Origin: Ornithinicoccus hortensis
Lineage (GTDB): Bacteria; Actinomycetota; Actinomycetes; Actinomycetales; Dermatophilaceae
Direction of reading: 5' to 3'
DNA: 64,000 nucleotides
NCBI RefSeq assembly: GCF_006716185.1
Contig: NZ_VFOP01000001.1
Location: 3,224,001-3,288,000 of the forward strand
Numbering within the stretch: position 1 is the stretch's first letter; each line of letters starts with the position of its first letter. The notes under the pieces were generated by a model. It had not been told where the DNA came from. It did not search any database and was given only the letters and a program-made list of their open reading frames with translations. Positions 1 through 17,304 of this stretch are shown piece after piece. The position numbers and the translations under genes were made by a program.

Positions 1-2262
1 GTCGACGCCGTGGTTCATGGCGAGCAGCATCAGCAGCAGCCGGGCCCGCGGGCGCAGCGGCAGGAGGTCGACGTCGCTGCCGTAGCACAGCCGGAACGCC
101 CCCAGGCAGCTCACCCGGGCCTCCGGGGCTCGCGCCCCCGGGTCCTCGGCCCGGCGCGCGGCGCTGGGCTGGACCGCCGCGCGGCAGGCCACCAGGACCG
201 TCGCGACGTTGTCGACCGCCGCCTCGCGGGCCAGGCCGGAGACGAGCCGGTCCGGCGCGGGCACCGGGGCGCCCGCGGCGGCCGCGTCCACCGCCAGGAC
301 GAGCGCCCGCACCCACAGCTCCAGGGCCGGCGCGCCCAGCTCGGCCGCCGTCGCCGCCGCACGGTCCAGGTGGTCGCGCGCCTCGGCATACTCCTCCTGG
401 CGCGCGAGCGCGACCGCCGTCACCGCCCGGATCACCAGCTCGCCCCAGGCGTCCTGGTCCCGCTGGCAGGCGCCGATCGCGCTGCGGCACGCGGCGATCC
501 GCCAGGACTGGCCGGCGGTCTCCAGGACCAGGCAGGCCTGCAGCCCCTGCGCGACCCGGGCCAGCCACGGGTACCCCTCGACGTCGGCCGTCAGGCTCAG
601 GTCCTCCAGGGTGGCGCAGCAGGACCGCCGGTGACCGGCGGCCCCGACCTCCATCAGGGCGCCGAGCAGCCCCGCGGCGATCTTGGGCCAGGTGCCGTCG
701 GTGAGGTCGGGATAGGCCCGGTCCAGCTCCAGCCGCGCCCTGGCGACCCGCCCGGCGAGCAGGTGCCCGATGGTGGCGACCACACCCCATACCGGGTCGG
801 CGTCCCCGTCCGGCCCTGCCGCCGGCACCGGGGGCCCGACGCTGCGGGTCAGCGCCCGCACGGCACCGAGCGGCGAGCGGGACACGTCCGCGGTGGGGGC
901 CCGCCCGCCCAGCCAGGCGCCGGCCTGCAGCCGCTGCGCGGCGCAGTGCGCGGCCAGGTCGGGGTCGTCGGCGGCCGCCTCGACCAGGCGCAGCGCCACC
1001 AGCGCGGCCTCCATCGAGCCCTGCCGCAGCAGGCGGCGGATCCGGGCGACGGCCAGCCACGGATCGTTCTGCTCGGCCGAGTCCAGGGCTCCCGAGGACA
1101 GCGGGCCGACGTCCGGGTCGGCGACCCCGGCACGCTCCCGGACCAACCGGGCGGCGGCACCCCAGTCACCGGCCCGCTTGTAGGCCCGCAGCGCCTCGGT
1201 GTGGTGCCCGGCGCGTTCCAGCAGGGCGGCGGCGCGGGCGTGCAGCCCGGTGACCTCGGCGGGCGCCAGCTCGTCCTCGAGCACCACCTCCAGATGGTCG
1301 CGCAGCACCTGGTGGTAGCGGTAGGTGAGGCCCTCGTCGGGGGTGGTCGTGAACAGCTGCCCGGACTCCAGGCCACGCAACACGCTCCTGCTGCCGCCCC
1401 GGTCCAGGAGTGCGTCGCACAGGGCGGGGTCCAGGATCCCCAGCGGCGCGGTCCGGAGCAGGAACTCCCGGTGCTCGGGCGAGAGCCCGTCGAGCACCGT
1501 CCTGGCCAGGTAGGACCGGATCAGCCGGGACCGGCCGTTGAGCCGGACCACCTCGGCCTCGCGCTCCACGTGGGTGAGCCCGCGCACCGACAGGTGGAAC
1601 AGCTGCAGCGCGGCGGCGAGACCCCCGACCCGGCGGCACAGGAGGGCGGCCGCCTCGGGGGCCAACGGCTCGTCGTAGACGCTGCGGAACAGGTCCTCGA
1701 CCTCCCAGGACCGGAACCGGAGGTCGTCCCCGGAGAGCTCGACCAGGTCGCCCGAGGCCAGCATCCGGCTGGTGTTGAAGGAGGGCGGCCGCCGCGACCC
1801 GAGGAGCACCCGGACCGAGGCGGGGCGCAGCAGCAGAAAGCGTTCCAGCGCGTCCTCGGCCGCGGTGCCGGCCAGGGCGTGCACGTCGTCGACGATGAGC
1901 AGCGACCCGTCCCGGGCGGGGTCGTCACCCAGCGCCGCGAGCAGCGCGTCGACCCCCGCACCCGCCGGGAGGTCCTGCCCGTCCGGGCCCAGCAGCGCCC
2001 GGGCCAGGTAGCGGACCACCGCCGGCTCGTCGTGGTCCTCGACCCCCGCGGTGAACCAGGCCGCGCTCCCGACGGAGGCCGCCACCCGGCCCAGGAGCGT
2101 GGTCTTGCCGGCCCCCGGGGGCGCCACCACCAGGGCCGTTCCCGGGGAGTCCGGGGACAGCAGGGCGTCCTCGAGCCGGGCGCGGACCAGGCCCACCGGC
2201 TTCGGGCACCGCGTCTTGAACGGCACGGTCACCGGGACCGTCCGCACAGGCGCGGGGATCAT
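1..2262 (-). CDS. SARP-family transcriptional regulator with STAND-type ATPase domain (3' end cut by window edge)
   Basis: 754 codons are visible and no stop is reached before the window edge. The N-terminal half carries a P-loop (APPGAGKT, residues 47-54) and a Walker B-like LLIVDDVHAL, followed by a long Ala/Leu-rich helical region typical of TPR-like sensor domains in MalT/AfsR-type regulators. From about residue 715 a sequence beginning SCLGAFRLCYG and continuing LRPRARLLLMLLAMN matches the start of a Trans_reg_C winged helix, as in SARP/BTAD proteins with a C-terminal DNA-binding part. The ATG overlaps the stop of the upstream cell-wall hydrolase gene (ATGA), so the two are translationally coupled. 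It probably senses a nucleotide or ligand and activates promoters. The targets are unknown. Confidence 0.8.
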   Translation of the reverse strand, partial: MIPAPVRTVPVTVPFKTRCPKPVGLVRARLEDALLSPDSPGTALVVAPPGAGKTTLLGRVAASVGSAAWFTAGVEDHDEPAVVRYLARALLGPDGQDLPAGAGVDALLAALGDDPARDGSLLIVDDVHALAGTAAEDALERFLLLRPASVRVLLGSRRPPSFNTSRMLASGDLVELSGDDLRFRSWEVEDLFRSVYDEPLAPEAAALLCRRVGGLAAALQLFHLSVRGLTHVEREAEVVRLNGRSRLIRSYLARTVLDGLSPEHREFLLRTAPLGILDPALCDALLDRGGSRSVLRGLESGQLFTTTPDEGLTYRYHQVLRDHLEVVLEDELAPAEVTGLHARAAALLERAGHHTEALRAYKRAGDWGAAARLVRERAGVADPDVGPLSSGALDSAEQNDPWLAVARIRRLLRQGSMEAALVALRLVEAAADDPDLAAHCAAQRLQAGAWLGGRAPTADVSRSPLGAVRALTRSVGPPVPAAGPDGDADPVWGVVATIGHLLAGRVARARLELDRAYPDLTDGTWPKIAAGLLGALMEVGAAGHRRSCCATLEDLSLTADVEGYPWLARVAQGLQACLVLETAGQSWRIAACRSAIGACQRDQDAWGELVIRAVTAVALARQEEYAEARDHLDRAAATAAELGAPALELWVRALVLAVDAAAAGAPVPAPDRLVSGLAREAAVDNVATVLVACRAAVQPSAARRAEDPGARAPEARVSCLGAFRLCYGSDVDLLPLRPRARLLLMLLAMNHGVD

Positions 2263-4247
2263 GACGACCAGTCCGGGTCGCCGGCCGCGGCGGCCTGCTC
2301 GAATCCGTCGGTGAGTCCGTCGCCGTCGGAGTCGACGAGCAACGGGTTGCTGCCCCGGGCCACCTCCCAGGCGTCGGAGAGCCCGTCCCCGTCGGTGTCG
2401 GCCGAGGTGGGGTCGAGCCCGGTCCGGATCTCGTAGGTGTCCGACAGCCCGTCGCCGTCGGTGTCGACGAAGCCGTTGCGGATGTTCTCGGCGAACTCGC
2501 CCCGGCCCACGACGCCGGCGATCCCGGGCAGCGAGCCCGCGTCGGTGCCCTCGGCCACCTCCTGGGCGTCCCCGATCCCGTCGCCGTCGGTGTCCGCGGA
2601 CAGCGGGTCGGTCCGGGAGGCGATCGCCTCGTACCCGTCGCTCAGCCCGTCGCCGTCGGTGTCCGCGACCGTCGGGTCGGTCCCCGCCAGCGCCTCGAAG
2701 GCATCGGTGAGACCGTCGCCGTCGGTGTCGACCGACTGGTCCGGCGGCAACCCGGCGTCGATGAGGTCGTAGCCGGTGCCGACCGGCGCCTCCGGCTGCG
2801 GCGCCGGCGGCGGGGCCACCACCGGGGTGGTGGGCACCGGGACGGGGTCCTCGGTCATCCCCGGGATGACGCCGGCATACCGGAACCGGTCGCCGGCCTC
2901 CAGCACGGTCACCCCGGTGCCGGGGTTCGCCTCGACGGTGCGGCCGTCCCCGAGGCTGATCGCGACGTGCGCCCCCGGGGGCCGCGACCCCCCGGTCGGT
3001 TCGTAGGGGAAGTAGAACAGCAGGGCGCCCTTGGTGTGCAGGGCGTCCTCGACCGAGATCAGCGAGCCCTGCGACTTCAGCGAGAGGTACTGCTCCTGCG
3101 AGGAGCGCGGGATGTCCACGCCCACCTGCTCGGCCGCCCACTGGGCCAGCTCGGAGCAGTCGAAGGCGGTCGGGTCCGGCCCCACCGCGGTGGCCCCGAA
3201 GACGTACTCGTCGCCGAACTGGGCCAGGGCCGCGTCGACGAATCCGTCGGCCGCGCTCGTCGCGGAGCCCCAGGTCGGGGCCGCGTCCGCCGTGGCGCCT
3301 GCACCGTCGGCGGGGTGGTACGACACGCTCGTCACCGTCGGCGCCATCGTGGACGGAGGGGGTATGCCGTCAGCCGGGGCGGCGGGTGGCTGGACGTTGA
3401 GCGGTGGCTCGGTGAGTGGCGCCTCGGGCGGCGGCGGGTCGGGCAGCGGCACCCCGTCCCCGGCGTCCTGGACGAGCGGGTCGGTGCCGAAACTCACCTC
3501 CGCCGCGTCGGTGAGCCCGTCCGCGTCGGTGTCCCGCAGCGTGGGGTCGGTGCCCAACAGGTACTCCCGGGCATCGGACAGGCCGTCGCCGTCGGTGTCG
3601 ATCTTCGTCGGGTCGCTGCGCAGCACACCGACCTCGATCGCGTCCGACAGCCCGTCACCGTCGGTGTCCGCGACCGTCGGGTCCGACGCGGCCGCCTGCT
3701 CCAACGCGTCGGTGAGGCCGTCGCCGTCGGTATCGGTCTGCATACCGGCCGTCACGGCCGCCGTCACCGTCTGCTGCTGCGCCTGCTGCACCTGCTGGGA
3801 CGGCGCCTGCTGGACCGGTGGGACGGGCGGCTCCGGCGCCGGGCCGGTCGGTGCGGGGGCGTTGTAGCCGGACACCCCCGACCAGTCGCCCGGCACGCCG
3901 ACCACGGCCTCGACGTCGTCCAGGTAGGTCCGGTAGTCGTGGGCCGTCCCCTTGTTGAAGTCGTGCGTGGTCGTCCACGGCCGCATGTCGATCCCGCCCC
4001 GGGAGATGTCGAAGGCGGCGCGGGCGTTGACCCGCGGATCGGAGAGGTCGCCCCACTGGTTGGTCCGCACCGCGGGGTCGATGTTGACCTGCCACAGGCC
4101 CCGGGAGTCCTCGCCCTGGTCGTTGACCGCGCTGAGGTTTCCCCCCGACTCGGCAAGGGCGATGGCGGTCCAGGTGGTCGCCTGGCTCGGACTGAAGCCG
4201 GCCTCCAGCGCAACCTGGTAGATCTGTTCGATCGAATACGTCGCCAT
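2259..4247 (-). CDS. Leaderless lysozyme-like + NlpC/P60 cell-wall hydrolase with ten TSP3-type Ca-binding repeats
   Basis: 662 residues. Residues 1-130 resemble a transglycosylase/tail-lysozyme domain (ALAESGGN with Glu33, then GLWQVNI). A Gln/Pro linker leads to four DTDGDGLTD-type calcium-binding repeats (about 172-260). An NlpC/P60 peptidase domain follows (about 335-465) with Cys364 in FDCSEL and His427 in GAHVAIS. Six more repeats end the protein (507-662). This implies cleavage of both glycan and peptide bonds of peptidoglycan, with Ca-stabilised spacers. There is no signal peptide: the ATG is set by GGAG eight bases upstream and the N-terminus is hydrophilic. Export would therefore need lysis, a phage-tail-like particle or another route. 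It is coupled to the downstream SARP/ATPase gene. Confidence 0.85.
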   Translation of the reverse strand: MATYSIEQIYQVALEAGFSPSQATTWTAIALAESGGNLSAVNDQGEDSRGLWQVNIDPAVRTNQWGDLSDPRVNARAAFDISRGGIDMRPWTTTHDFNKGTAHDYRTYLDDVEAVVGVPGDWSGVSGYNAPAPTGPAPEPPVPPVQQAPSQQVQQAQQQTVTAAVTAGMQTDTDGDGLTDALEQAAASDPTVADTDGDGLSDAIEVGVLRSDPTKIDTDGDGLSDAREYLLGTDPTLRDTDADGLTDAAEVSFGTDPLVQDAGDGVPLPDPPPPEAPLTEPPLNVQPPAAPADGIPPPSTMAPTVTSVSYHPADGAGATADAAPTWGSATSAADGFVDAALAQFGDEYVFGATAVGPDPTAFDCSELAQWAAEQVGVDIPRSSQEQYLSLKSQGSLISVEDALHTKGALLFYFPYEPTGGSRPPGAHVAISLGDGRTVEANPGTGVTVLEAGDRFRYAGVIPGMTEDPVPVPTTPVVAPPPAPQPEAPVGTGYDLIDAGLPPDQSVDTDGDGLTDAFEALAGTDPTVADTDGDGLSDGYEAIASRTDPLSADTDGDGIGDAQEVAEGTDAGSLPGIAGVVGRGEFAENIRNGFVDTDGDGLSDTYEIRTGLDPTSADTDGDGLSDAWEVARGSNPLLVDSDGDGLTDGFEQAAAAGDPDWSS

Positions 4248-4531: not shown

Positions 4532-5776
4532 ATGAGGCGCGCAACGACATACATCCGCACGAAGGTCGTCCGGGGGGCGGTGATCGGCAGCGCCACCGCG
4601 CTGGTGGCGGTGGCCGCGCCGCTGGGCGCGACGGCCAACGCGACGGCCGACCCGACCGACTGCGCGGCGCCGGAGATCGTGGCGCACCGCGGGTCCGGCG
4701 GCACCAGCCCGGAGAACACCGTGGCCAGCTTCCGGGACGCGCGGACCAGCCGGGCGACCGTCGTGGAGACCGACGTGCAGCTCAGCGCCGACGGGGTGCC
4801 GTTCCTGTTCCACGACGGGACCGGGAGCCGGACGACCGACGTGGCGGAGGTGTTCCCGGAGCGGGCGGGCGACCCGATCACCAGCTTCACCTGGGCCGAG
4901 CTGCGCCAGCTCGACGCCGGCAGCTACTTCTCCCCCCGCTATGAGGGCGAGCGCATTCCGCACCTGAACGAGGCGGCCCGTCCCTTCGCCGGGTCGGACG
5001 TCACCGTCAACATCGAGCTGAAGAGCCCCGAGAACTCCCCCGGCGTCGAGGCGGTGCTGGCCCAGGAGCTCGCGACCAACCGCACCTGGCAACGGCTCAT
5101 CGCGCAGGACCAGGTGGTGGTGAGTTCCTTCGACGAGGCCTCGCTGACCACCTTCCACGAGCTCGCGCCCGACATCCCGGTGCTGCAGGTCGGCACCATC
5201 CCGGAGGACGAGGAGACCCTGGAGCGGTGGGCCGGGTTCGCCGACGGTGTGGTCACCAACTACCGCACGCTCGACCCGGCCGACATCGAACGGGTCCGGG
5301 CGCACGGTCTGAGCTTCAGCGTCTACACGCTCAACTCCCCGGAGGCCGTGCAGGCCGCCGCGGACCTGTGCGTGGACCAGGTGATCAGCGACTTCCCCAC
5401 CCAGATGACCCGTCTGCTGCGCGGGCACGACCCGCTCCCGATGGCCAACGGCATCGAGGTGCTGGACGTGGTCGCCGACGTCCCCGGCGACGACCTGCAG
5501 CCGGAGACCGGCGAGCACGTCGTGCTCACCAACACCTCGGGGCGGGCCATCGACGTCGGCGGCTACCTGCTGCAGGACGCCGTGGTCAACCGGCTGACCG
5601 TGGGCGAGGGCTACGTCATCCCGCCCGGTGGCGAGCTGCGCGTCTACACCGGGCCCGGCACCAACACCGCCGACCGCTACTACAACGACCTCGGCCGCAA
5701 CGTGCTCAACAACGACGGGGACTCGGTGGCGGTGCTCACGCCGCAGCTCCGGTTGCTGGACCTCTATGCCTACTGA
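4532..5776 (+). CDS. Secreted glycerophosphodiester phosphodiesterase with C-terminal lamin-tail-like domain
   Basis: 414 residues. A twin-Arg-poor but Sec-like signal peptide (about 1-38) is followed by a GDPD TIM-barrel domain. It has the hallmark AHRG (His52), ENT (61-63), ETDVQL and FHD motifs, and IELK further on. The enzyme hydrolyses glycerophosphodiesters to glycerol-3-phosphate and an alcohol, here outside the membrane. Residues from about 310 resemble a lamin-tail (LTD) beta-sandwich (HVVLTNTSGRAIDVGGYLLQD). It is the first gene of a phosphate-handling run, 15 bp before a Pit permease. The start has GGAG upstream. The operator-like site it shares with the ABC importer suggests co-induction with it. 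Confidence 0.9.
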   Translation: MRRATTYIRTKVVRGAVIGSATALVAVAAPLGATANATADPTDCAAPEIVAHRGSGGTSPENTVASFRDARTSRATVVETDVQLSADGVPFLFHDGTGSRTTDVAEVFPERAGDPITSFTWAELRQLDAGSYFSPRYEGERIPHLNEAARPFAGSDVTVNIELKSPENSPGVEAVLAQELATNRTWQRLIAQDQVVVSSFDEASLTTFHELAPDIPVLQVGTIPEDEETLERWAGFADGVVTNYRTLDPADIERVRAHGLSFSVYTLNSPEAVQAAADLCVDQVISDFPTQMTRLLRGHDPLPMANGIEVLDVVADVPGDDLQPETGEHVVLTNTSGRAIDVGGYLLQDAVVNRLTVGEGYVIPPGGELRVYTGPGTNTADRYYNDLGRNVLNNDGDSVAVLTPQLRLLDLYAY

Positions 5777-5791
5777 CCACCGGGGGAACCG

Positions 5792-6769
5792 GTGAACTGG
5801 GCCCTGCTCGCGGCGGCCGTCGCCTTCGCCCTGGTCAACGGCGCCAACACCGGCGCGACGATGCTCGCCGCCACCATCACCCTGGACTCGATCGGCCACG
5901 TCCTCGGGCTGCTGCTGCTCGGGCTGGGCGTCGCCCTCGGACCGGTCCTGGTCGGCACCGGCGTGGCGGCCCGGTTCGCCGGGGAGATGGTCCCGTGGGA
6001 GGGCGAGGGATCCGAGACCGGCATGCTGGTGGCCGTGCTAGTCAGCCTGCTGGTGGTGCTCGGCCTGACCCGCCTGGGCATCCCGACCGGGCTCACCCTG
6101 GCCTTCGTCGGCGCGATCGCCGGCTACGGCGCCGCCTCGGGCACCGGCATCGCCTGGCACTCGGTCCTGATCGTGCTGGGCATGATGGCCCTCGCCCCGG
6201 TCCTGGGCGGCCTGCTCGCCGCGTTCGTGATCGCCGTCTTCGCCCGCCGGCTGCGCTCGCGCCACGTCAGCCGCAGCCTGGGCCGGGTGCACGCCCTGTC
6301 CTTCCCCGCCCTGGCCGTGGGCTACGGCGCCAGCGACGGGCAGAAGATGCTGGCGATCAGCGCGGTGGCCCTGGGCCTGACCGGGCAGGGTGCCTCCGGC
6401 TCGGTGGCGGCCCCAACCCTCCTCCTGGTCGCCCTGGGGGTGCTGTTCACCCTCGGCAGCGCGGCCGGCTACCGCAGCATGTCGCGCCGGCTCGGCCAGG
6501 GCGTGCTGCCCGTCCGCCCCGTGTATGCCGTCACCTCCGAGGTCGCCACGGCGGCGGCGCTGCTGGGGTCGGCCGGGGTCGGCACCCCGGTCGGGGTCGC
6601 GCAGACGCTGACCGGCTCGCTGATCGGCGCGGGCGCCAGCCAGGGCCTGGGCCGGGTCCGCTGGCCCCAGGTCTCCACCATCGTGGTCGCCTGGGTCGTC
6701 ACGCTGCCGCTCACCTTCGGGATCGCGGCGGCCGTGGCCGGAGGCCTCCGGGCCGGGGGTGCGCTGTGA
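5792..6769 (+). CDS. Pit-type inorganic phosphate permease
   Basis: 325 residues, almost entirely hydrophobic, with about ten membrane helices. The NGANTGATMLA segment at residues 16-26 is the Pit/PHO4 family signature in a slightly altered form (the family usually has NGANDxA). Pit carriers take up metal-phosphate complexes with protons. The GTG start lies after a GGGGG ribosome-binding stretch. The gene sits between the GDPD gene and a DUF47 gene, the usual Pit partner. It probably imports phosphate released by the extracytoplasmic phosphoesterases nearby. The family assignment is strong; the substrate is inferred. Confidence 0.85.
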   Translation: MNWALLAAAVAFALVNGANTGATMLAATITLDSIGHVLGLLLLGLGVALGPVLVGTGVAARFAGEMVPWEGEGSETGMLVAVLVSLLVVLGLTRLGIPTGLTLAFVGAIAGYGAASGTGIAWHSVLIVLGMMALAPVLGGLLAAFVIAVFARRLRSRHVSRSLGRVHALSFPALAVGYGASDGQKMLAISAVALGLTGQGASGSVAAPTLLLVALGVLFTLGSAAGYRSMSRRLGQGVLPVRPVYAVTSEVATAAALLGSAGVGTPVGVAQTLTGSLIGAGASQGLGRVRWPQVSTIVVAWVVTLPLTFGIAAAVAGGLRAGGAL

Positions 6770-7398
6770 AGCTGCTCTCCCGCATCTCCCGGGCGCTGAA
6801 CCGCCGTCCCGACGCCCCGCTGGTCACCCTGTTGCGGGAGCAGGTGGCCTCGGCCATCGACGGGGTGGAGGTGGCCCGGGCCGCGGTCGCGGGGTCCGCC
6901 CCGCTGGACGATGCCCGGTCCGAGATGGCCCGGGTGGAGCACGAGGGCGACCGGCGCCGCTCGGCGGCGGTCACCCGGCTCGCCTCGGCCTTCGCCAACC
7001 CGATCGACCGGGAGGACCTGTTCCGGCTGTCCCGCTCGATCGACGACATCCTGGACAACCTGCAGGACTACGTCCGCGAGCTGGCGCTCTTCGACATCTC
7101 CCCCGGTCCGGGGCAGGACGAGATGCTGGTCGCCATCGGGGAGGGCCTGTCCGACCTGGACACCGCGATCTCGGCGATCGCCCACGACCCGCTGCAGATC
7201 CGGACCCGGTCGCTGGCGGTGCGCAAGAACGAGGTGCGCCGGCTCTACCAGGAGTCCGTGGCCCGGACGCTGAGCGGCCCGATCGACGCCGCGGCGCTGA
7301 AGAACCGCGAGCTGCTGCGCCGCCTCGACGTGGTCGGGCTCCGGCTGGGCGAGGCGGCCGACGCGCTGGCCGACGGCGCGGTGAAACGCAGCCACTGA
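6766..7398 (+). CDS. DUF47 (PhoU-like) protein, partner of the Pit permease
   Basis: 210 residues, all-helical and charged, with repeated metal-site-like acidic clusters (EHEGDRRR, DDILDNLQDYVRE). This matches the DUF47/PhoU-like family that accompanies Pit transporters. The GTG start overlaps the permease stop as GTGA, so the pair is translationally coupled. The upstream region encodes the permease and offers no separate promoter. It most likely regulates phosphate flux through the permease by an unknown mechanism. Confidence 0.85.
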   Translation: MKLLSRISRALNRRPDAPLVTLLREQVASAIDGVEVARAAVAGSAPLDDARSEMARVEHEGDRRRSAAVTRLASAFANPIDREDLFRLSRSIDDILDNLQDYVRELALFDISPGPGQDEMLVAIGEGLSDLDTAISAIAHDPLQIRTRSLAVRKNEVRRLYQESVARTLSGPIDAAALKNRELLRRLDVVGLRLGEAADALADGAVKRSH

Positions 7399-7462
7399 CC
7401 CGATCCAGACCCAGACACGCCCACACACAGACCAGACAGCAGACGACGTTGGGAGCGACCGC

Positions 7463-9049
7463 ATGACGACAGGCCACGGGGCCGGGACCCCACCGGAGCA
7501 CCGCATGCACCCGGACCGGCCGGTGGTGCGCGCCGAGGTGCTGACCCAGGGCAACCTGGCGCCCTACCACGGGCTCTCGGCCGGGCCTCCGGAGCCGCAC
7601 ATCGTGCGCACCGACCTCACCGGCGGGACGCCGTCCGGGACGCCGCGCAGCCTGTGGCACGTGGCGCACCTGACCGACGTGCAGCTGATCGACGCCCAGT
7701 CCCCCTCCCGGTTGGAGGCGGTGCACGAGCTCGGCATACGGCCCGAGACGACCCTGATGCTGCCGATGCAGCGTCCCCAGGAGCTGCTCGCGGCCCACGC
7801 GACCGAGCTGCTCGTGCGGCGGCTCAACGAGCACCCGGGATCGGCCGTGACCGGCGCGCCGCTGCAGGCCGTGGTGACCACCGGCGACAACGTCGACAAC
7901 ATGCAGCAGAACGAGGTGCAGGCCTTCCTGCGGCTGTTCAGCGGCGGCACCGTCGACCTGGACTCCGGCGGGCCGGCCTACCAGGGCTACCAGGACGGCA
8001 GCGTCGACTGGGCCTGGGCACCGGAGGACCCGGACAACCGGTGGGGTCGGGCGCACGGCTTCCCCGTCGTGCCGGGCCTGCTGTCCCGTGCGCTGCAGCC
8101 GCTGGAGGCCAGCGGCCTGGAGATCCCCTGGCTCACCTGCTTCGGCAACCACGACGGCCTGATCCAGGGGCGGGTGCCGGCCACGCCCGAGCTGGTCGAC
8201 ATCACGCTCGGCCACCGCAAGGTCACCGCGGTGCGGGCCGAAGATGTCGCCGACTTCACCGGCGACCCGATGCCCGCCTTCCGGGAGCTGCGCCGCGAGG
8301 TGGACCCCGACCCACGGCGGCGCCCGGTGAGCCGGGCCGAGTACGTCGCGGCGCACTGGGACCGGGGCCTGCCCGACGGGCACGGCTTCACCGACCAGAA
8401 CCTGGCCGACGGCACCGCCTACTACGCCTACCAGGGCTTCGAGGGGATCCGGCTGCTGGTGCTCGACAGCACCAACCCGGCCGGCGTCTTCGAGGGCAGC
8501 CTGGACCGGGAGCAGTTCGCCTGGCTGGGCGAGCAGCTGCGGGCGGCCACCGCGGCGGACGAGCTGGTCGTCGTCGCCTCCCACCACCCGCGCAGTTCGA
8601 TGACCAACGACCTGCTGGCACCGGGGGCGGACCAGGAGACCGAGGCCCGGGTGCTCGGTGAGGAGGTCGGCGAGCTGCTGCTGGCCCACCCCCACGTCAT
8701 CGCCTGGTTCAGCGGGCACATCCACCGCAACCGGATCACCGCCCACACCGGGCCCGGGGGCGGCGGCTACTGGGAGATCAGCACCTCCTCGGTGATGGAC
8801 TGGCCGACGCAGGGCCGGCTGGTCGAGCTGCTCGACCACGGGGACGGGCTGCTCTCGCTCCGGCTGACCATCCTGGACCACGAGGGGCCGCTGCGCCCGT
8901 CCTCGGTGGAGACCGTCGAGGACCTGGCCGGGTGGCACCGGGCCCTGGCCGCCAACGACCCGCACGGGGTCGGCGGGTTCGAGGCTCACGGCAGCGCCGT
9001 GGACCGCAACGTCGAGCTGCTGCTGCGCGACCCGCGAGGGCGTGCCTAG
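7463..9049 (+). CDS. Calcineurin-type metallophosphoesterase (PPA1498-like)
   Basis: 528 residues. Dinuclear-metal phosphoesterase motifs appear in order: HLTDVQLID (replacing the usual DxH), TTGDNVDN, FGNHDG, ASHHP and SGHIHRN. The Gln-containing first motif and the length recall the actinobacterial PPA1498-type group (a family I name from memory). No signal peptide or membrane segment is visible, so it may be cytoplasmic or exported in a non-standard way. GGGAG precedes the ATG. It follows the phosphate genes on the same strand. It ends 4 bp inside the convergent LacI gene. The substrate is probably an organophosphate, but this is inference. Confidence 0.8.
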   Translation: MTTGHGAGTPPEHRMHPDRPVVRAEVLTQGNLAPYHGLSAGPPEPHIVRTDLTGGTPSGTPRSLWHVAHLTDVQLIDAQSPSRLEAVHELGIRPETTLMLPMQRPQELLAAHATELLVRRLNEHPGSAVTGAPLQAVVTTGDNVDNMQQNEVQAFLRLFSGGTVDLDSGGPAYQGYQDGSVDWAWAPEDPDNRWGRAHGFPVVPGLLSRALQPLEASGLEIPWLTCFGNHDGLIQGRVPATPELVDITLGHRKVTAVRAEDVADFTGDPMPAFRELRREVDPDPRRRPVSRAEYVAAHWDRGLPDGHGFTDQNLADGTAYYAYQGFEGIRLLVLDSTNPAGVFEGSLDREQFAWLGEQLRAATAADELVVVASHHPRSSMTNDLLAPGADQETEARVLGEEVGELLLAHPHVIAWFSGHIHRNRITAHTGPGGGGYWEISTSSVMDWPTQGRLVELLDHGDGLLSLRLTILDHEGPLRPSSVETVEDLAGWHRALAANDPHGVGGFEAHGSAVDRNVELLLRDPRGRA

Positions 9050-13513: not shown

Positions 13514-14355
13514 CCACGAACGTCGAGACCCTGCCCGGGCAGGGCGGTATGCGACCCGGCCGGATCCTGGAGACCGCCGGTGCGTGGCTGCTCGGCATCC
13601 TGTGGCTGATCCCGCTCGTCTTCGCGGTGTGGGCCTCGGTGCACCACCGCGACGCGGCCACCTCCTTCGACCTCACGGCGCCGCTGACCTTCGACAACTT
13701 CGCGTCGGTCTGGTCCGGGGCACCGTTCGGCCGCTACTACCTGAACACCATCCTGCTGGTGAGCGGGATCCTGGTGGGCCAGCTGGTGCTGGGCGTGCTG
13801 GCCGCGTATGCCTTCGCCCGCTTCCGGTTCGTCGGCAGCAACATCGCCTTCGCGCTGGTCCTGGTGCAGCTGATGATCGCGCCGGACATCCTGATCTCGG
13901 AGAACTACACGACGATGGCCAGCCTGAAGCTGGTCGACACGATCCCGGCCATCGGGTTGCCCTACATCGCCAGCGCGTTCGGCATCTTCCTGCTCCGGCA
14001 GACCTTCAAGTCGATGCCGATCGAACTCGACGAGGCCGCCGAGATCGAGGGCGCCGGCCGGATGGGGCGGCTGTGGCGGGTCTACGTGCCGCTGGCCAAG
14101 CCGACGCTGGTGGCCTACGGGCTGGTCTCGGTGAGCACCCACTGGAACAACTTCCTGTGGCCGCTGGTGATCACCAACAGCGTGAACTCCCGCCCGCTCA
14201 CCGTCGGCCTGGCGGTCTACAACGGCACCGAGTCCGGCATCGACTGGACCCTGCTGTCGGCCGCCACGGTGCTGGTCGTCGCCCCGCTGCTGATCGCCTT
14301 CCTGATCTTCCAGCGCCAGTTCGTGCAGAGCTTCATGCGCGCCGGGATCCGCTGA
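13510..14355 (+). CDS. ABC importer permease, UgpE/MalG type
   Basis: 281 residues with six membrane helices and an EAA loop (LDEAAEIEGAGRMGRLWRVYVP). The GTG start overlaps the previous stop (GTGA). It is the last gene of the importer operon. Its final 23 bases overlap the 3' end of the convergent SARP gene, so the two transcripts are antisense at their ends. Confidence 0.9.
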   Translation: MTTNVETLPGQGGMRPGRILETAGAWLLGILWLIPLVFAVWASVHHRDAATSFDLTAPLTFDNFASVWSGAPFGRYYLNTILLVSGILVGQLVLGVLAAYAFARFRFVGSNIAFALVLVQLMIAPDILISENYTTMASLKLVDTIPAIGLPYIASAFGIFLLRQTFKSMPIELDEAAEIEGAGRMGRLWRVYVPLAKPTLVAYGLVSVSTHWNNFLWPLVITNSVNSRPLTVGLAVYNGTESGIDWTLLSAATVLVVAPLLIAFLIFQRQFVQSFMRAGIR

Positions 14356-15091
14356 TCCTGGCGTCCCCGCCCACCAGGTCCAGCAACCGGGGGCCGGGCG
14401 GGACCCCGAGCTCGGCGGACAGCAACAGCTCGTAGCGCCGGACCTGCTCCAGCGCCAGGCACCGGTTCCCCTCGGCCAGGTGGGCACGCACCAGCACCTC
14501 CTGGGCGCTCTCCCGCAACGGGTCGCAGGAGACCGCCAGCAGCCCGGTCTCGATCGCCGTGCCGTGGATGCCGTCGTCGCTCAGCCGCCGGCACAGCGAC
14601 TCCAGCGCGTGCACCCGCAGCTGGGCGAACGCATACTGCTCGTCGGCCAACCAGTCCTCCGACCAGTGCGGCAGCAGCGGGTGGCGCAGCAGCGGCACCG
14701 CCACCCTGGCCGGGAAACGCCCCTGCCGGGCCAGCACCTTGCGGGCGACCCGCTCCGCCGCGACCCAGTCCACCCGGACCGCGCGCCCGAGCCGGAGCCC
14801 GTCGTCCTCGGCGACCACCACGGCGGGCACCCGCGGCAACTCCCGGAGGGTGCTGCGCAGACTGGCGTAGGCTCGTGCCCCCGTCACGTCGGGCCAGAGC
14901 GTGCCGGCCACCATGGCGCGCGGCAGCCGGCGCCCGCGGTGGGTGGCGAGCAGCACCAGCAACCGCTGCGCCCTCGGGCGCAGCCGCAACTCCCGGCCGC
15001 CCTGGCTCAGCACGCACTCCGGCAGCAGGTGCAGCCGGGTTCCACCGGTGCGGACCGGCTTGGCTGGGGAGAGCGTCAGGATCGAGGTCAT
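14333..15091 (-). CDS. Small SARP (BTAD-domain) transcriptional regulator
   Basis: 252 residues. A Trans_reg_C winged-helix part (about 20-100; RLRPRAQRLLVLLATHRGRRLP, with LWPDV following) is joined to a bacterial transcriptional activation domain (about 110-245; EQYAFAQLRVHALESLCRRL, LALEQVRRYELLLSAELGVPPGPRLLDL). It is the short SARP form, without an ATPase. The gene is divergent from the MMP-like cluster across 229 bp. That gap contains three heptamers at 11-bp period just before a -10, the layout SARPs bind. It is the likely activator of that cluster. Confidence 0.88.
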   Translation of the reverse strand: MTSILTLSPAKPVRTGGTRLHLLPECVLSQGGRELRLRPRAQRLLVLLATHRGRRLPRAMVAGTLWPDVTGARAYASLRSTLRELPRVPAVVVAEDDGLRLGRAVRVDWVAAERVARKVLARQGRFPARVAVPLLRHPLLPHWSEDWLADEQYAFAQLRVHALESLCRRLSDDGIHGTAIETGLLAVSCDPLRESAQEVLVRAHLAEGNRCLALEQVRRYELLLSAELGVPPGPRLLDLVGGDARISGSRRA

Positions 15092-15187
15092 GGCGGGGCT
15101 CCGAGCAGAGATCGGACACCGGGAGGAGCGCCACTGCCCCTCCCGTGATACCTGCCCACGGCACCGGGCGGGGGCGCCGGCACCGGT

Positions 15188-15231
15188 GTCACGCCGCGGT
15201 CACGCCCGGGTCACACCCCGCCTCCTAGCGT
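15188..15231 (+). promoter_or_regulatory. SARP-type operator (three direct heptamers, 11-bp period) with -10 element
   Basis: Heptamers GTCACGC (15188), GTCACGC (15199) and GTCACAC (15210) recur every 11 bp on the same face of the helix. Nine bases later comes TAGCGT (15226-15231), a good actinobacterial -10. SARP activators are known to bind such repeats with the last one about 8 bp from the -10, replacing the -35. The rest of the 15092-15320 gap shows only a GAGGAGG ribosome-binding site before 15321. Confidence 0.7.
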
Positions 15232-15320
15232 GCCGTCCGTGCACAGGCAAGGCGCCTGCGCCGGCCGAGCACTCGGCATACGACGACCAGCCCGTCCCGT
15301 GACGGGCACGAGGAGGCGAC

Positions 15321-16340
15321 ATGGCGACCGACGACATGGTCCCGAAGTCGACCGGGGTCAAGAAGGGCGACAGCGGTGCCGACGTGCGCCGGGTCCAGCA
15401 CTACCTGACCACCTTCGGCTATCTGGAGTCGGCGACCCTGGACCGGTTCGGGGTGAGCCACGAGCTGGCGAGCCCGGCGCCGGACGAGGGGACCTTCGAC
15501 GAGGCGACCGAGGAGGCGCTGACCCGGTTCCAGGAACGCTACGGACTGAACCCGACGGGCAAGGTCGACAAGGCGACCCAGGACCTGATGAAGCGTCCGC
15601 GCTGCGGGTTCCCGGACACCGCGGAGTTCGTCGCGCAGGGCAACAAGTGGAACACCACCGCGCTGCGCTACGGCTTCGTGGAGTTCACCCCGGACCTGAC
15701 CCAGGCCCAGGTGCGTGCGGCGGTCTCGACCGCCTTCGGCTACTGGGCGGCGGTCACCCCGCTGACCTTCACCGAGATCCCGAACGCGAACAACCCGGAG
15801 ATCCGGATCCGGTTCGTGGCCGGCGACCATGGCGACGGGAGCCCGTTCGACGGGGCCAGCGGCGTGCTGGCGCACGCGTTCTACCCGCCACCCAACGGCG
15901 GGGACATCGCGGGCGACACCCACTTCGACGAGGCCGAGACCTGGTCGGTGAACCTGCCGGCCTCGGGGACCGACCTCTACACGGTTGCGGCGCACGAGTT
16001 CGGACACGCCCTCGGGCTGGCGCACTCCACCGTCGCGAGCGCGCTGATGTACCCCTACTACGGCGGGCCGCACCGGCACCTGGACGCCGACGACATCGCC
16101 GGCATCCAGTCCATCTACGGCGCCTCGCAGTGGATGACCACAACGCTGAGCAGCGTCTACGCGACCCCGCACAGCAAGAACGCGTGGGCCTACCCGGCAG
16201 GGGTCGGCTGGCGCAAGGTGACCGGCACCTCGACCGACGGGGTGACCAACACGTTCGCGGCGCTGGTGCGCGCACGGGCTTCCGGCAAATCGGTCTACAT
16301 CCACGTGACCGGCACCGACATCGACACCGTCTACCTCTGA
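15321..16340 (+). CDS. MMP-like matrixin zymogen with peptidoglycan-binding prodomain and cysteine switch
   Basis: 339 residues. A PG_binding_1 domain (about 12-90) is followed by PRCGFPD (93-99), which is the matrix-metalloproteinase cysteine switch; Cys95 should cap the zinc. The catalytic domain holds HGDGSPFDG, LAHAF and HFDEAETW, close to the structural Zn/Ca segments of animal MMPs. It also has HEFGHALGLAH (His225, Glu226, His229, His235) and the Met-turn ALMYP (Met243). The last 65 residues repeat in the next gene. There is no signal peptide, although substrates of such enzymes are extracellular. GAGGAGG precedes the ATG. Confidence 0.9.
   Translation: MATDDMVPKSTGVKKGDSGADVRRVQHYLTTFGYLESATLDRFGVSHELASPAPDEGTFDEATEEALTRFQERYGLNPTGKVDKATQDLMKRPRCGFPDTAEFVAQGNKWNTTALRYGFVEFTPDLTQAQVRAAVSTAFGYWAAVTPLTFTEIPNANNPEIRIRFVAGDHGDGSPFDGASGVLAHAFYPPPNGGDIAGDTHFDEAETWSVNLPASGTDLYTVAAHEFGHALGLAHSTVASALMYPYYGGPHRHLDADDIAGIQSIYGASQWMTTTLSSVYATPHSKNAWAYPAGVGWRKVTGTSTDGVTNTFAALVRARASGKSVYIHVTGTDIDTVYL
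16164..16191 (+). repeat. 28-bp exact repeat, copy 1 (in matrixin 3' part)
   Basis: Identical over 28 bases to 16406-16433. Both encode TPHSKNAWA. It marks a recent duplication or gene-conversion tract between the matrixin C-terminal domain and the stand-alone domain gene. Confidence 0.9.
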
Positions 16341-16366
16341 CCCGAGACCACCCGAGGAGCACCACC

Positions 16367-16591
16367 ATGGCCACCTACAACACCACCATCGGCCGCATCT
16401 ACACCACCCCGCACAGCAAGAACGCGTGGGCCTGGCTGAACGCCGCCGGTGGGTGGCGCAAGATCGACGGCACCAGCACCGACGGGCACACCAACACCCA
16501 CCTGGTGCTGACCGCCGCCCGCGACAAGGGGTCGACCATCCGGGTCGACACCAACGCCGCGGACACCCTCATCGTCGCGGCCTACCTGTGA
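16367..16591 (+). CDS. Stand-alone copy of the matrixin C-terminal domain
   Basis: 74 residues. YTTPHSKNAWAWL and GWRKIDGTSTDGHTNTH align throughout with the last 65 residues of the preceding matrixin (YATPHSKNAWAYP, GWRKVTGTSTDGVTNTF). It probably has the same small beta-rich fold, rich in Trp, Thr and Asn. AGGAG precedes the ATG, and it lies 26 bp after the matrixin stop in the same operon. It could be a free binding module or a partner or decoy for the protease. I know of no named family. Confidence 0.75.
   Translation: MATYNTTIGRIYTTPHSKNAWAWLNAAGGWRKIDGTSTDGHTNTHLVLTAARDKGSTIRVDTNAADTLIVAAYL
16406..16433 (+). repeat. 28-bp exact repeat, copy 2 (in stand-alone domain gene)
   Basis: Second copy of the sequence at 16164-16191. 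The flanking alignment falls to protein-level similarity only, so the exact tract is shorter than the duplicated domain. Confidence 0.9.
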
Positions 16592-16619
16592 GCCGCACCG
16601 ACCCGAAAGGAGGCCCACC

Positions 16620-16865
16620 GTGGCCGACATGACCATCACCATCTCCCTCGGCGACCTGCTCACCGGCGAGGTCGGCGCGGCTGCCGCGGCACCCGCCCCC
16701 GACCCCGCGATGGGATCAACGGACAGTATGTCGACCCTCGGCTCCGCCGGTTCGGCACCCGCCCCCGACCCGTCGATCGGCGGCGACGACGCCTCCTCGG
16801 GGGCCGCGGTCTCCGGCGACGGCCCGGCGCCGGTCGGGCTGGAGGAACTGGGCGGCGGTGACTGA
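16620..16865 (+). CDS. Small Ala/Pro/Asp-rich acidic protein of unknown function
   Basis: 81 residues. A hydrophobic head, ITISLGDLLTGEVG, is followed by a low-complexity acidic tail with two PAPDPxxG units (APAPDPAMG, APAPDPSIGG), ending LEELGGGD. The GTG start is set by a near-perfect AAAGGAGG seven bases upstream, the strongest ribosome-binding site in the cluster, which suggests high expression. It has no cysteine and no membrane segment. It may be a structural, carrier or precursor-like peptide. It overlaps the next gene by 8 bp. Confidence 0.65.
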   Translation: MADMTITISLGDLLTGEVGAAAAAPAPDPAMGSTDSMSTLGSAGSAPAPDPSIGGDDASSGAAVSGDGPAPVGLEELGGGD

Positions 16866-17304
16866 GTCCACGCCCGAGGGGCGGGCGCAGGCAGTCGTCC
16901 TGCGGTCCGTCCTGACCGGCCGGCCGGTGCCGGGGAGCGACTCCCCGTGCCGGCCGGCCGACCTGTCCCTGGCCACCGACCCGGACGGCACGGTGCGGGT
17001 GCTGGCGACGGACCTGTCGCCCGAAGCCGCCGATGTGGTCCGGTCCCCCGGGACGCGTGCCCGGCTGGTCCCGGCCAACGAGGTCTCCGCGCTCCGCGCC
17101 GCGCCAGGGGTGGCCGCGGTACTCCGCCTGCGACCGCCCGAGGTCCTGCCCGGCCCGGACCGGCTCCGTCGCGTCCGGATCGCCGTGGAGGTCTGCGCGG
17201 TTCGCGAGCACGGCCTGCTGCCCCTGGACTCCCTGCTGGTCGTGCTGCGCCAGGAGGACGACGGCTGGGTCCTCGACGGGCCCCCGACCGGCCTGGCCAC
17301 CTGA
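16858..17304 (+). CDS. Uncharacterised 148-residue protein, last gene of the matrixin cluster
   Basis: GTG start inside the end of the previous gene, so probably translationally coupled. It is an Arg/Pro/Val-rich soluble protein with segments VLRSVLTGRPVPG, VRVLATDLSPEAADVVRSPGTRARLVPANEVSALR and VEVCAVREHGLLPLDSLLVVLRQED. I do not recognise a family. The third-codon GC pattern and the tight overlap support it as real. It ends 27 bp before the convergent IclR gene. Confidence 0.6.
   Translation: MTESTPEGRAQAVVLRSVLTGRPVPGSDSPCRPADLSLATDPDGTVRVLATDLSPEAADVVRSPGTRARLVPANEVSALRAAPGVAAVLRLRPPEVLPGPDRLRRVRIAVEVCAVREHGLLPLDSLLVVLRQEDDGWVLDGPPTGLAT

Follow-up and report, generated by a model that had tools for sequence, protein, structure and literature searches.

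A predicted SARP operator of known geometry and unusual setting before a matrixin protease cassette in Ornithinicoccus hortensis

The window analysed here is a stretch of 64,000 nucleotides from Ornithinicoccus hortensis. It contains a short SARP (BTAD) regulator of 252 aa (14333–15091, minus strand) that is divergent from a matrixin protease cassette on the plus strand. In a Pfam search, this small protein matched BTAD (PF03704) with 51.1 bits against a cut-off of 22.1 and Trans_reg_C (PF00486) with 17.5 bits, which is under the cut-off of 26.2; no other family was identified at E 0.1. The definition of small SARPs given in the available text of PMC12224297 includes Trans_reg_C PF00486. A profile made from an alignment of 11 short SARPs, the window SARP included, matches AfsR (8hvr) across the whole SARP domain (E 1.3e-21).

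To the right of the predicted operator, four genes form an operon-like row (15321–17304). The first encodes a matrixin-type metalloprotease of 339 aa (15321–16340, plus strand) composed of PG_binding_1 (PF01471, 57.8 bits), Peptidase_M10 (PF00413, 180.7 bits) and a C-terminal domain of approximately 70 aa, the last being apparent from an alignment (A3). The sequence PRCGFPD is found ahead of the catalytic domain, and HEFGHALGLAHS and ALMYP are also present; we take these three to be the cysteine switch, the zinc site and the Met-turn. The second gene (16367–16591, plus strand) encodes a 74-aa stand-alone copy of the matrixin C-terminal domain, as judged by alignment, with an AlphaFold model of mean pLDDT 87.2. 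No Pfam family was over cut-off for this copy and a Foldseek search of the model returned nothing at E ≤ 0.001; the best matches were OB-fold subunits (E 0.03), so that the predicted structure may bear a weak resemblance to an OB-fold. The third gene (16620–16865, plus strand) encodes an Ala/Pro/Asp-rich protein of 81 aa with no Pfam family, and genes of similar composition were noted by eye at the same place in Ornithinimicrobium sediminis and Microbacterium ulmi. The fourth (16858–17304, plus strand) encodes a 148-aa protein of no known family that is kept in both of these other cassettes with 43% and 34% identity; no Pfam family was over cut-off and its AlphaFold model is unreliable (pLDDT 49.7). 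NCBIfam also gave nothing over cut-off for the SARP, the matrixin, or the 81-aa and 148-aa proteins.

The C-terminal domain of about 70 aa was matched in five of 394 class genomes, the genome of the window included; thus, the matrixin cassette is rare in the class. The same domain also ends other kinds of protease in Bacteroidetes and Proteobacteria (L080–L088), with a small stand-alone copy coming next; the protease kinds were named by eye with the exception of the Humibacillus astacin of L083.

The intergenic region of 229 bp between the SARP and matrixin genes (15092–15320) contains three heptamers on the plus strand with an exact period of 11 bp: GTCACGC (15188–15194), GTCACGC (15199–15205) and GTCACAC (15210–15216). 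A gap of nine bases (15217–15225) leads to a predicted −10 element, TAGCGT (15226–15231, plus strand), for which O. sediminis has the same letters at the same distance. A probable ribosome binding site, GAGGAGG, is located at 15310–15316 (plus strand). The earlier note on this DNA had described the heptamers, the TAGCGT nine bases on, a divergent short SARP gene and a four-gene protease cluster, and each was found as described, the SARP gene as an open reading frame with a BTAD match. On the minus strand, TATCAC (15145–15150) was noted by eye as a possible −10 element of the SARP gene; TATCGC (L045:5824–5829) and TATCAG (L044:8823–8828) occupy similar places before the SARP genes of O. sediminis and M. 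ulmi, again by eye.

A search of the whole genome (3,935,242 bases) for GTCACRC N4 GTCACRC N4 GTCACRC identified one match, with none for a backwards control. A further pattern, STCAC(N6) taken three times and followed by TANNNT, was matched in two of 58 genomes, the genome of the window included, at the matrixin cassette in both cases and with a backwards control of zero. The intergenic region was also fitted to a model of three STSACGS heptamers followed after 8 or 9 bp by TAnnnT. The best fit had one mismatch and was equaled by none of 500 first-order Markov shuffles, and the best three-heptamer fit to the reverse complement had six mismatches. Since STSACGS was composed after these loci had been seen, the mismatch fits and their shuffles, here and below, are not blind predictions. 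Given the shuffles, the single match in the genome and the occurrence in two of 58 genomes, both at the cassette, the repeats are not due to chance.

Two close orthologous four-gene cassettes were identified, one in O. sediminis (L045; genome G015, NZ_JAJSDQ010000003.1) and one in M. ulmi (L044). The O. sediminis cassette has a divergent SARP gene (53% identity), and the intergenic region reads CTCACGC, CTCACGC, GTCACGC and CTCACGG at 11 bp followed after 9 bp by TAGCGT. The best three-heptamer fit had no mismatches and was reached by 0 of 500 shuffles. In M. ulmi, the matrixin is 76% identical and the SARP (40%) is encoded convergently at the far downstream end of the cassette. Before the matrixin gene is the sequence CTCACGC-GCGC-ATGACGA-CGCC-GTAACGG-9 bp-TACCTT. 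The three-heptamer fit (three mismatches, 0 of 500 shuffles) is alone convincing here, as the two-heptamer fit was reached by 16 of 500 shuffles. A second triple further upstream, GTCATGG-TCTC-GTCACGT-TCTC-GTGACGG, was noted by eye. With the SARP gene of M. ulmi elsewhere and the operator still before the matrixin gene, the operator stays with the protease promoter. Direct repeats at 11 bp are conserved in both cassettes, and the distance from the last repeat to the −10 element is 9 bp in the window, O. sediminis and M. ulmi alike.

In all, 45 matrixin loci were found, and a sensitive profile placed a short SARP within the fetched DNA of three of them (L044, L045 and L083). Thirty-six loci were scanned upstream over 320 bp to the match start, which falls inside the protein for a few (L074–L077 and L079). 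The two with a short SARP fit best, with 0 and 3 mismatches; the 34 without one, as judged within the fetched DNA rather than the whole genome and with one side short in some, had four mismatches (L065) or at least seven. The earlier note had proposed a search for the heptamers before orthologous matrixin genes and had held that orthologous loci lacking both repeats and a SARP gene would speak against its reading. The O. sediminis and M. ulmi loci have both, which came out in favor of that reading, and the 34 other loci have neither a short SARP within the fetched DNA nor a three-heptamer fit with at most three mismatches. The third locus, from Humibacillus (L083), contains a related cassette with a short SARP and an astacin-type protease. 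No operator was recognisable there, since the best fit was reached by 255 of 500 shuffles with two heptamers and by 48 of 500 with three. This result is against a simple rule of SARP plus operator.

The 11-member alignment (A1) was used as a profile across the 394 class genomes and gave 53 listed matches above 175 bits, followed by a gap to below 150 bits. Fifty of the 53 were used with their flanks, leaving out the window itself, a seed (G040) and a duplicate in G226; among these 'short' loci, seven have frames of more than 500 aa according to mechanical ORF calling. A long-SARP control was assembled from 20 lower-scoring matches with long open frames; those whose frames were short, which may be classical small SARPs, were left out. 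The window SARP scored 219 bits with a profile from the 50 loci, from which it was excluded, and 144 bits with a long-SARP profile. A tree was built from 73 sequences, which included 12 of the 20 long SARPs. It groups the window SARP with those of O. sediminis and M. ulmi in one clade (99/98) and sets the short SARPs apart from the long ones (99/96), with a bootstrap that is not fully settled. From these sequence comparisons, the clade of matrixin-cassette SARPs is placed within a distinct short-SARP subfamily.

Repeats near the subfamily genes were counted in the region 4800–7900 of each locus, which is off-centre for L160 and L179; loci shorter than 9 kb (L177, L185, L204 and L209) were entered whole. 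In a motif-free ranking of words recurring at lag 11, which leaves out a run-of-N word from one locus, the top words were CGTCA (27 times, 16 loci) and GTCAC (26 times, 16 loci). Pairs of GTSAC at lag 11 numbered 30 in 19 of the 50 non-seed loci, and the other 31 loci had none in the regions counted. At other lags from 6 to 33, there were 0–6 pairs each with the exception of lag 22, which had 10, and Markov shuffles gave a mean of 1.7 pairs at lag 11 with a maximum of 6 in 200. The long-SARP control, counted over whole loci (240.8 kb), had two pairs at lag 11 in two of 20 loci, and the far flanks of the short-SARP loci had 12 in nine of 92 segments. In the far flanks of L160–L209, there is also a GTSAC peak at lag 15, with 14 pairs spread over 12 of the 92 segments, which is unexplained.

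After merging three split entries, 23 distinct subfamily operators were read in both directions (46 readings). The pattern nAnnnT follows the last heptamer six times at 8 bp and eight times at 9 bp, compared with 13 occurrences summed over 20 other offsets; the strict form TAnnnT occurs at 8–9 bp in one of the 46 readings, at 9 bp. Of the 23 operators, 14 have nAnnnT at 8–9 bp in a single reading, none in both, and the remaining nine in neither. Eleven of the 14 aim at a gene start on the same strand or sit in the 5' end of a called frame. As put in the available text of PMC10936776, SARP operators consist of direct repeats at 11 or 22 bp, the last of which, on the 3' side, lies some 8 bp from the −10 element. 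The earlier note had cited such a rule, and the predicted operators of the subfamily agree with it.

The genes beside the subfamily members, identified for a minority of the 50 loci, are varied. Mn-catalase genes adjoin short SARPs at three loci according to Pfam (L169, L171 and L188), each with GTSAC pairs at 11 bp close by; a literature search of open-licence papers for SARPs together with manganese catalase found no paper. Polyketide cyclase and ketosynthase genes adjoin short SARPs in L163 and L173. A second type of protease cassette is found in G006 (L116:9788–12800), where a papain-type protease with a C-terminal extension is accompanied by a small protein, a short SARP and, on the other strand, a gene for a chagasin-family inhibitor (I42). 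The papain promoter reads GTGACGC-GGGC-GTGACGT-8 bp-TAGCGT, a two-heptamer fit with one mismatch that none of 500 shuffles reached. Genes for small peptides with LLP/LPxRET-like stretches also adjoin short SARPs (L117:8089–8292, L189:5232–5450 and L198:5543–5779), and are followed in L117 and L198 by large proteins with ParA/MinD-like domains.

Sheath or Pvc16-type injection-system genes are located near short SARPs in L175–L177 and in the seeds G028, G030 and G017. A search with CIS markers matched two of the 50 loci and Pfam added a third (L175); with CIS genes at three of 50 loci, injection systems are one use among several. BTAD is named a shell domain of eCIS loci in the available text of PMC8213781. 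The genome of the window has a contractile-injection-like cluster at approximately C1:3209790–3222869, upstream of the window start, in which the sheath was identified by PF04984 and the tube, spike, PAAR, gp25 and baseplate genes by eye. A link between this cluster and the matrixin operator was considered and rejected, since the cluster ends about 15 kb before the SARP gene with unrelated genes between. A stretch of 46 kb from the same genome contained no second heptamer triple and three looser pairs, which lie before the injection cluster. In the 20-kb stretch of O. sediminis around the cassette (L113), no eCIS gene was noticed among the gene calls by eye. Within the window, a lysozyme/transglycosylase-like gene was noted by eye at 2259–4247 (minus strand).

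It is very likely that the three heptamers form the operator through which the divergent short SARP activates the matrixin operon. What the analysis shows is the repeats themselves, their spacing from the −10 element, their conservation together with a SARP, and the link of the subfamily to GTSAC at 11 bp. Activation of the protease cluster by the SARP had been proposed in the earlier note and is further suggested by both close orthologous cassettes, which share the layout and have SARPs from one clade with that of the window. Binding, activation and the mechanism are drawn by analogy from the available accounts of AfsR (PMC10936776) and PimR (PMC5930380). In such a mechanism, SARP protomers would line up head-to-tail on the same side of the DNA, each occupying a single 11-bp turn, and would overlap the −35 region. 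The bound SARP would then hold RNA polymerase on a weak promoter with TAGCGT as its −10 element and so turn the matrixin operon on. Because of the GTSAC pairs in the subfamily, the placement of nAnnnT at 8–9 bp and the variety of neighbours, the site in the window is taken as a predicted SARP operator with a known geometry, its own heptamer and an unusual setting.

The 11-bp period is shared by another class of site, the PHO box, whose direct repeat units of 11 bp, of the type G(G/T)TCAYYY, are bound by the OmpR-family regulator PhoP. If the repeats were a PHO box, PhoP would control the protease genes according to phosphate supply. The sequence GGTCACGCCCG does resemble a PHO-box unit, and TCA is present in all three heptamers of the window. 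According to the available text of PMC10936776, the sequences bound by AfsR overlap those bound by PhoP at some Streptomyces promoters. However, a search for the exact triple found it just once in the genome, and across the 36 scanned loci the repeats track the SARP and not matrixin genes generally. The G006 and M. ulmi repeats partly carry TGA or TAA where PHO boxes need TCA, and the GTSAC enrichment is near short SARPs and not long ones. Control by PhoP is therefore judged quite improbable.

It is also unlikely that the repeats are a SARP operator at which the SARP acts as a repressor or mainly regulates its own gene. A site between divergent genes would suit such a role, and the L191 operator points at a short-SARP gene; however, the −10 element at the right distance is on the matrixin side only, the reverse reading being the one with six mismatches, and the M. 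ulmi operator is still before the matrixin gene even though the SARP gene there is downstream and convergent. Repetition by chance in GC-rich DNA, with no regulator involved, scarcely merits belief. The words CGCCG (25 times, 15 loci) and CGCGC do recur at lag 11 near short SARPs as well, but the 0 of 500 shuffles, the same −10 distance in two other cassettes and the enrichment across the family all stand against it.

AfsR T88 and R92, which contact bases according to the available text of PMC10936776, were matched by eye to Ser80 and Glu84 of the window SARP. The residue aligned with R92 is Gly in O. sediminis and Gln in M. ulmi; among the eight other A1 sequences it is Arg in five cases and otherwise Lys, Gln or Leu. 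Across the wider subfamily, heptamers mostly begin with G (30 of 38 pairs), and the 14 operators with nAnnnT all begin with GTGAC where the window reads GTCAC. The matrixin clade varies at the first base (G, C or A), and of its 10 heptamers before the −10 element, eight have C as the third base. That helix and heptamer are drifting jointly in this clade is offered as an idea and not a result.

Taken more broadly, we lean modestly toward a short-SARP subfamily with an operator code of its own (GTSACGS at 11 bp, 8–9 bp before the −10 element) that would serve as a portable local switch. It may have been fitted to protease cassettes (M10, papain and perhaps astacin), contractile injection systems, Mn-catalase and polyketide genes, with the end of the recognition helix (W-R to R-E, R-G or H-Q) and heptamer bases 1 and 3 having drifted together in the matrixin clade. 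Such a code is concrete and testable as the DNA code of a SARP subfamily, and could allow the genes activated by a short SARP to be predicted from sequence. In the available text of PMC12224297, 864 of 1053 small SARPs in Streptomyces are in biosynthetic clusters, in agreement with the statement of the earlier note that SARPs usually serve antibiotic clusters. The role outside such clusters that it had suggested has a precedent in the BTAD regulators of eCIS loci (available text of PMC8213781), and the conserved neighbours here are a protease cassette. Thus, proteases are probably also turned on by regulators of a type known chiefly for antibiotic genes, and SARP control likely reaches beyond antibiotic clusters to take in a protease cassette, with injection systems and Mn-catalase perhaps as further cases. 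A literature search of open-licence papers, mostly as abstracts, gave no account of this operator or of a SARP before a matrixin gene, and in the open-licence texts available the heptamer, the regulator clade and the target were not found described.

Among known systems, the PHO box of PhoP is like the site in the window in having 11-bp direct repeat units that contain TCA. From the available text on AfsR, the afs box of the Streptomyces coelicolor afsS promoter also consists of 11-bp direct repeats, which overlap the −35 region, and AfsR is a regulator with OmpR-type DNA-binding and BTA domains, whose SARP domain (8hvr) is matched by the short-SARP profile. Unlike the window SARP, AfsR has additional NOD/TPR domains and acts globally. 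The −35 element in the AfsR site is TTCAGC where the window has GTCACGC, and the base-contacting R92 of AfsR stands against Glu84 in the by-eye match. The PimR operator at pimM of Streptomyces natalensis, as given in the available text of PMC5930380, likewise has three heptamers and 4-bp spacers, at least two heptamers being needed for PimR binding. It differs in the heptamer itself (CGGCAAG) and in not overlapping the −35 region, and PimR is a SARP-LAL protein from a polyene antibiotic cluster. The eCIS BTAD regulators, for which the available text of PMC8213781 gives neither an operator nor a mechanism, resemble the window regulator as SARP-type genes outside antibiotic clusters, whereas the matrixin cassette itself sits outside any eCIS cluster.
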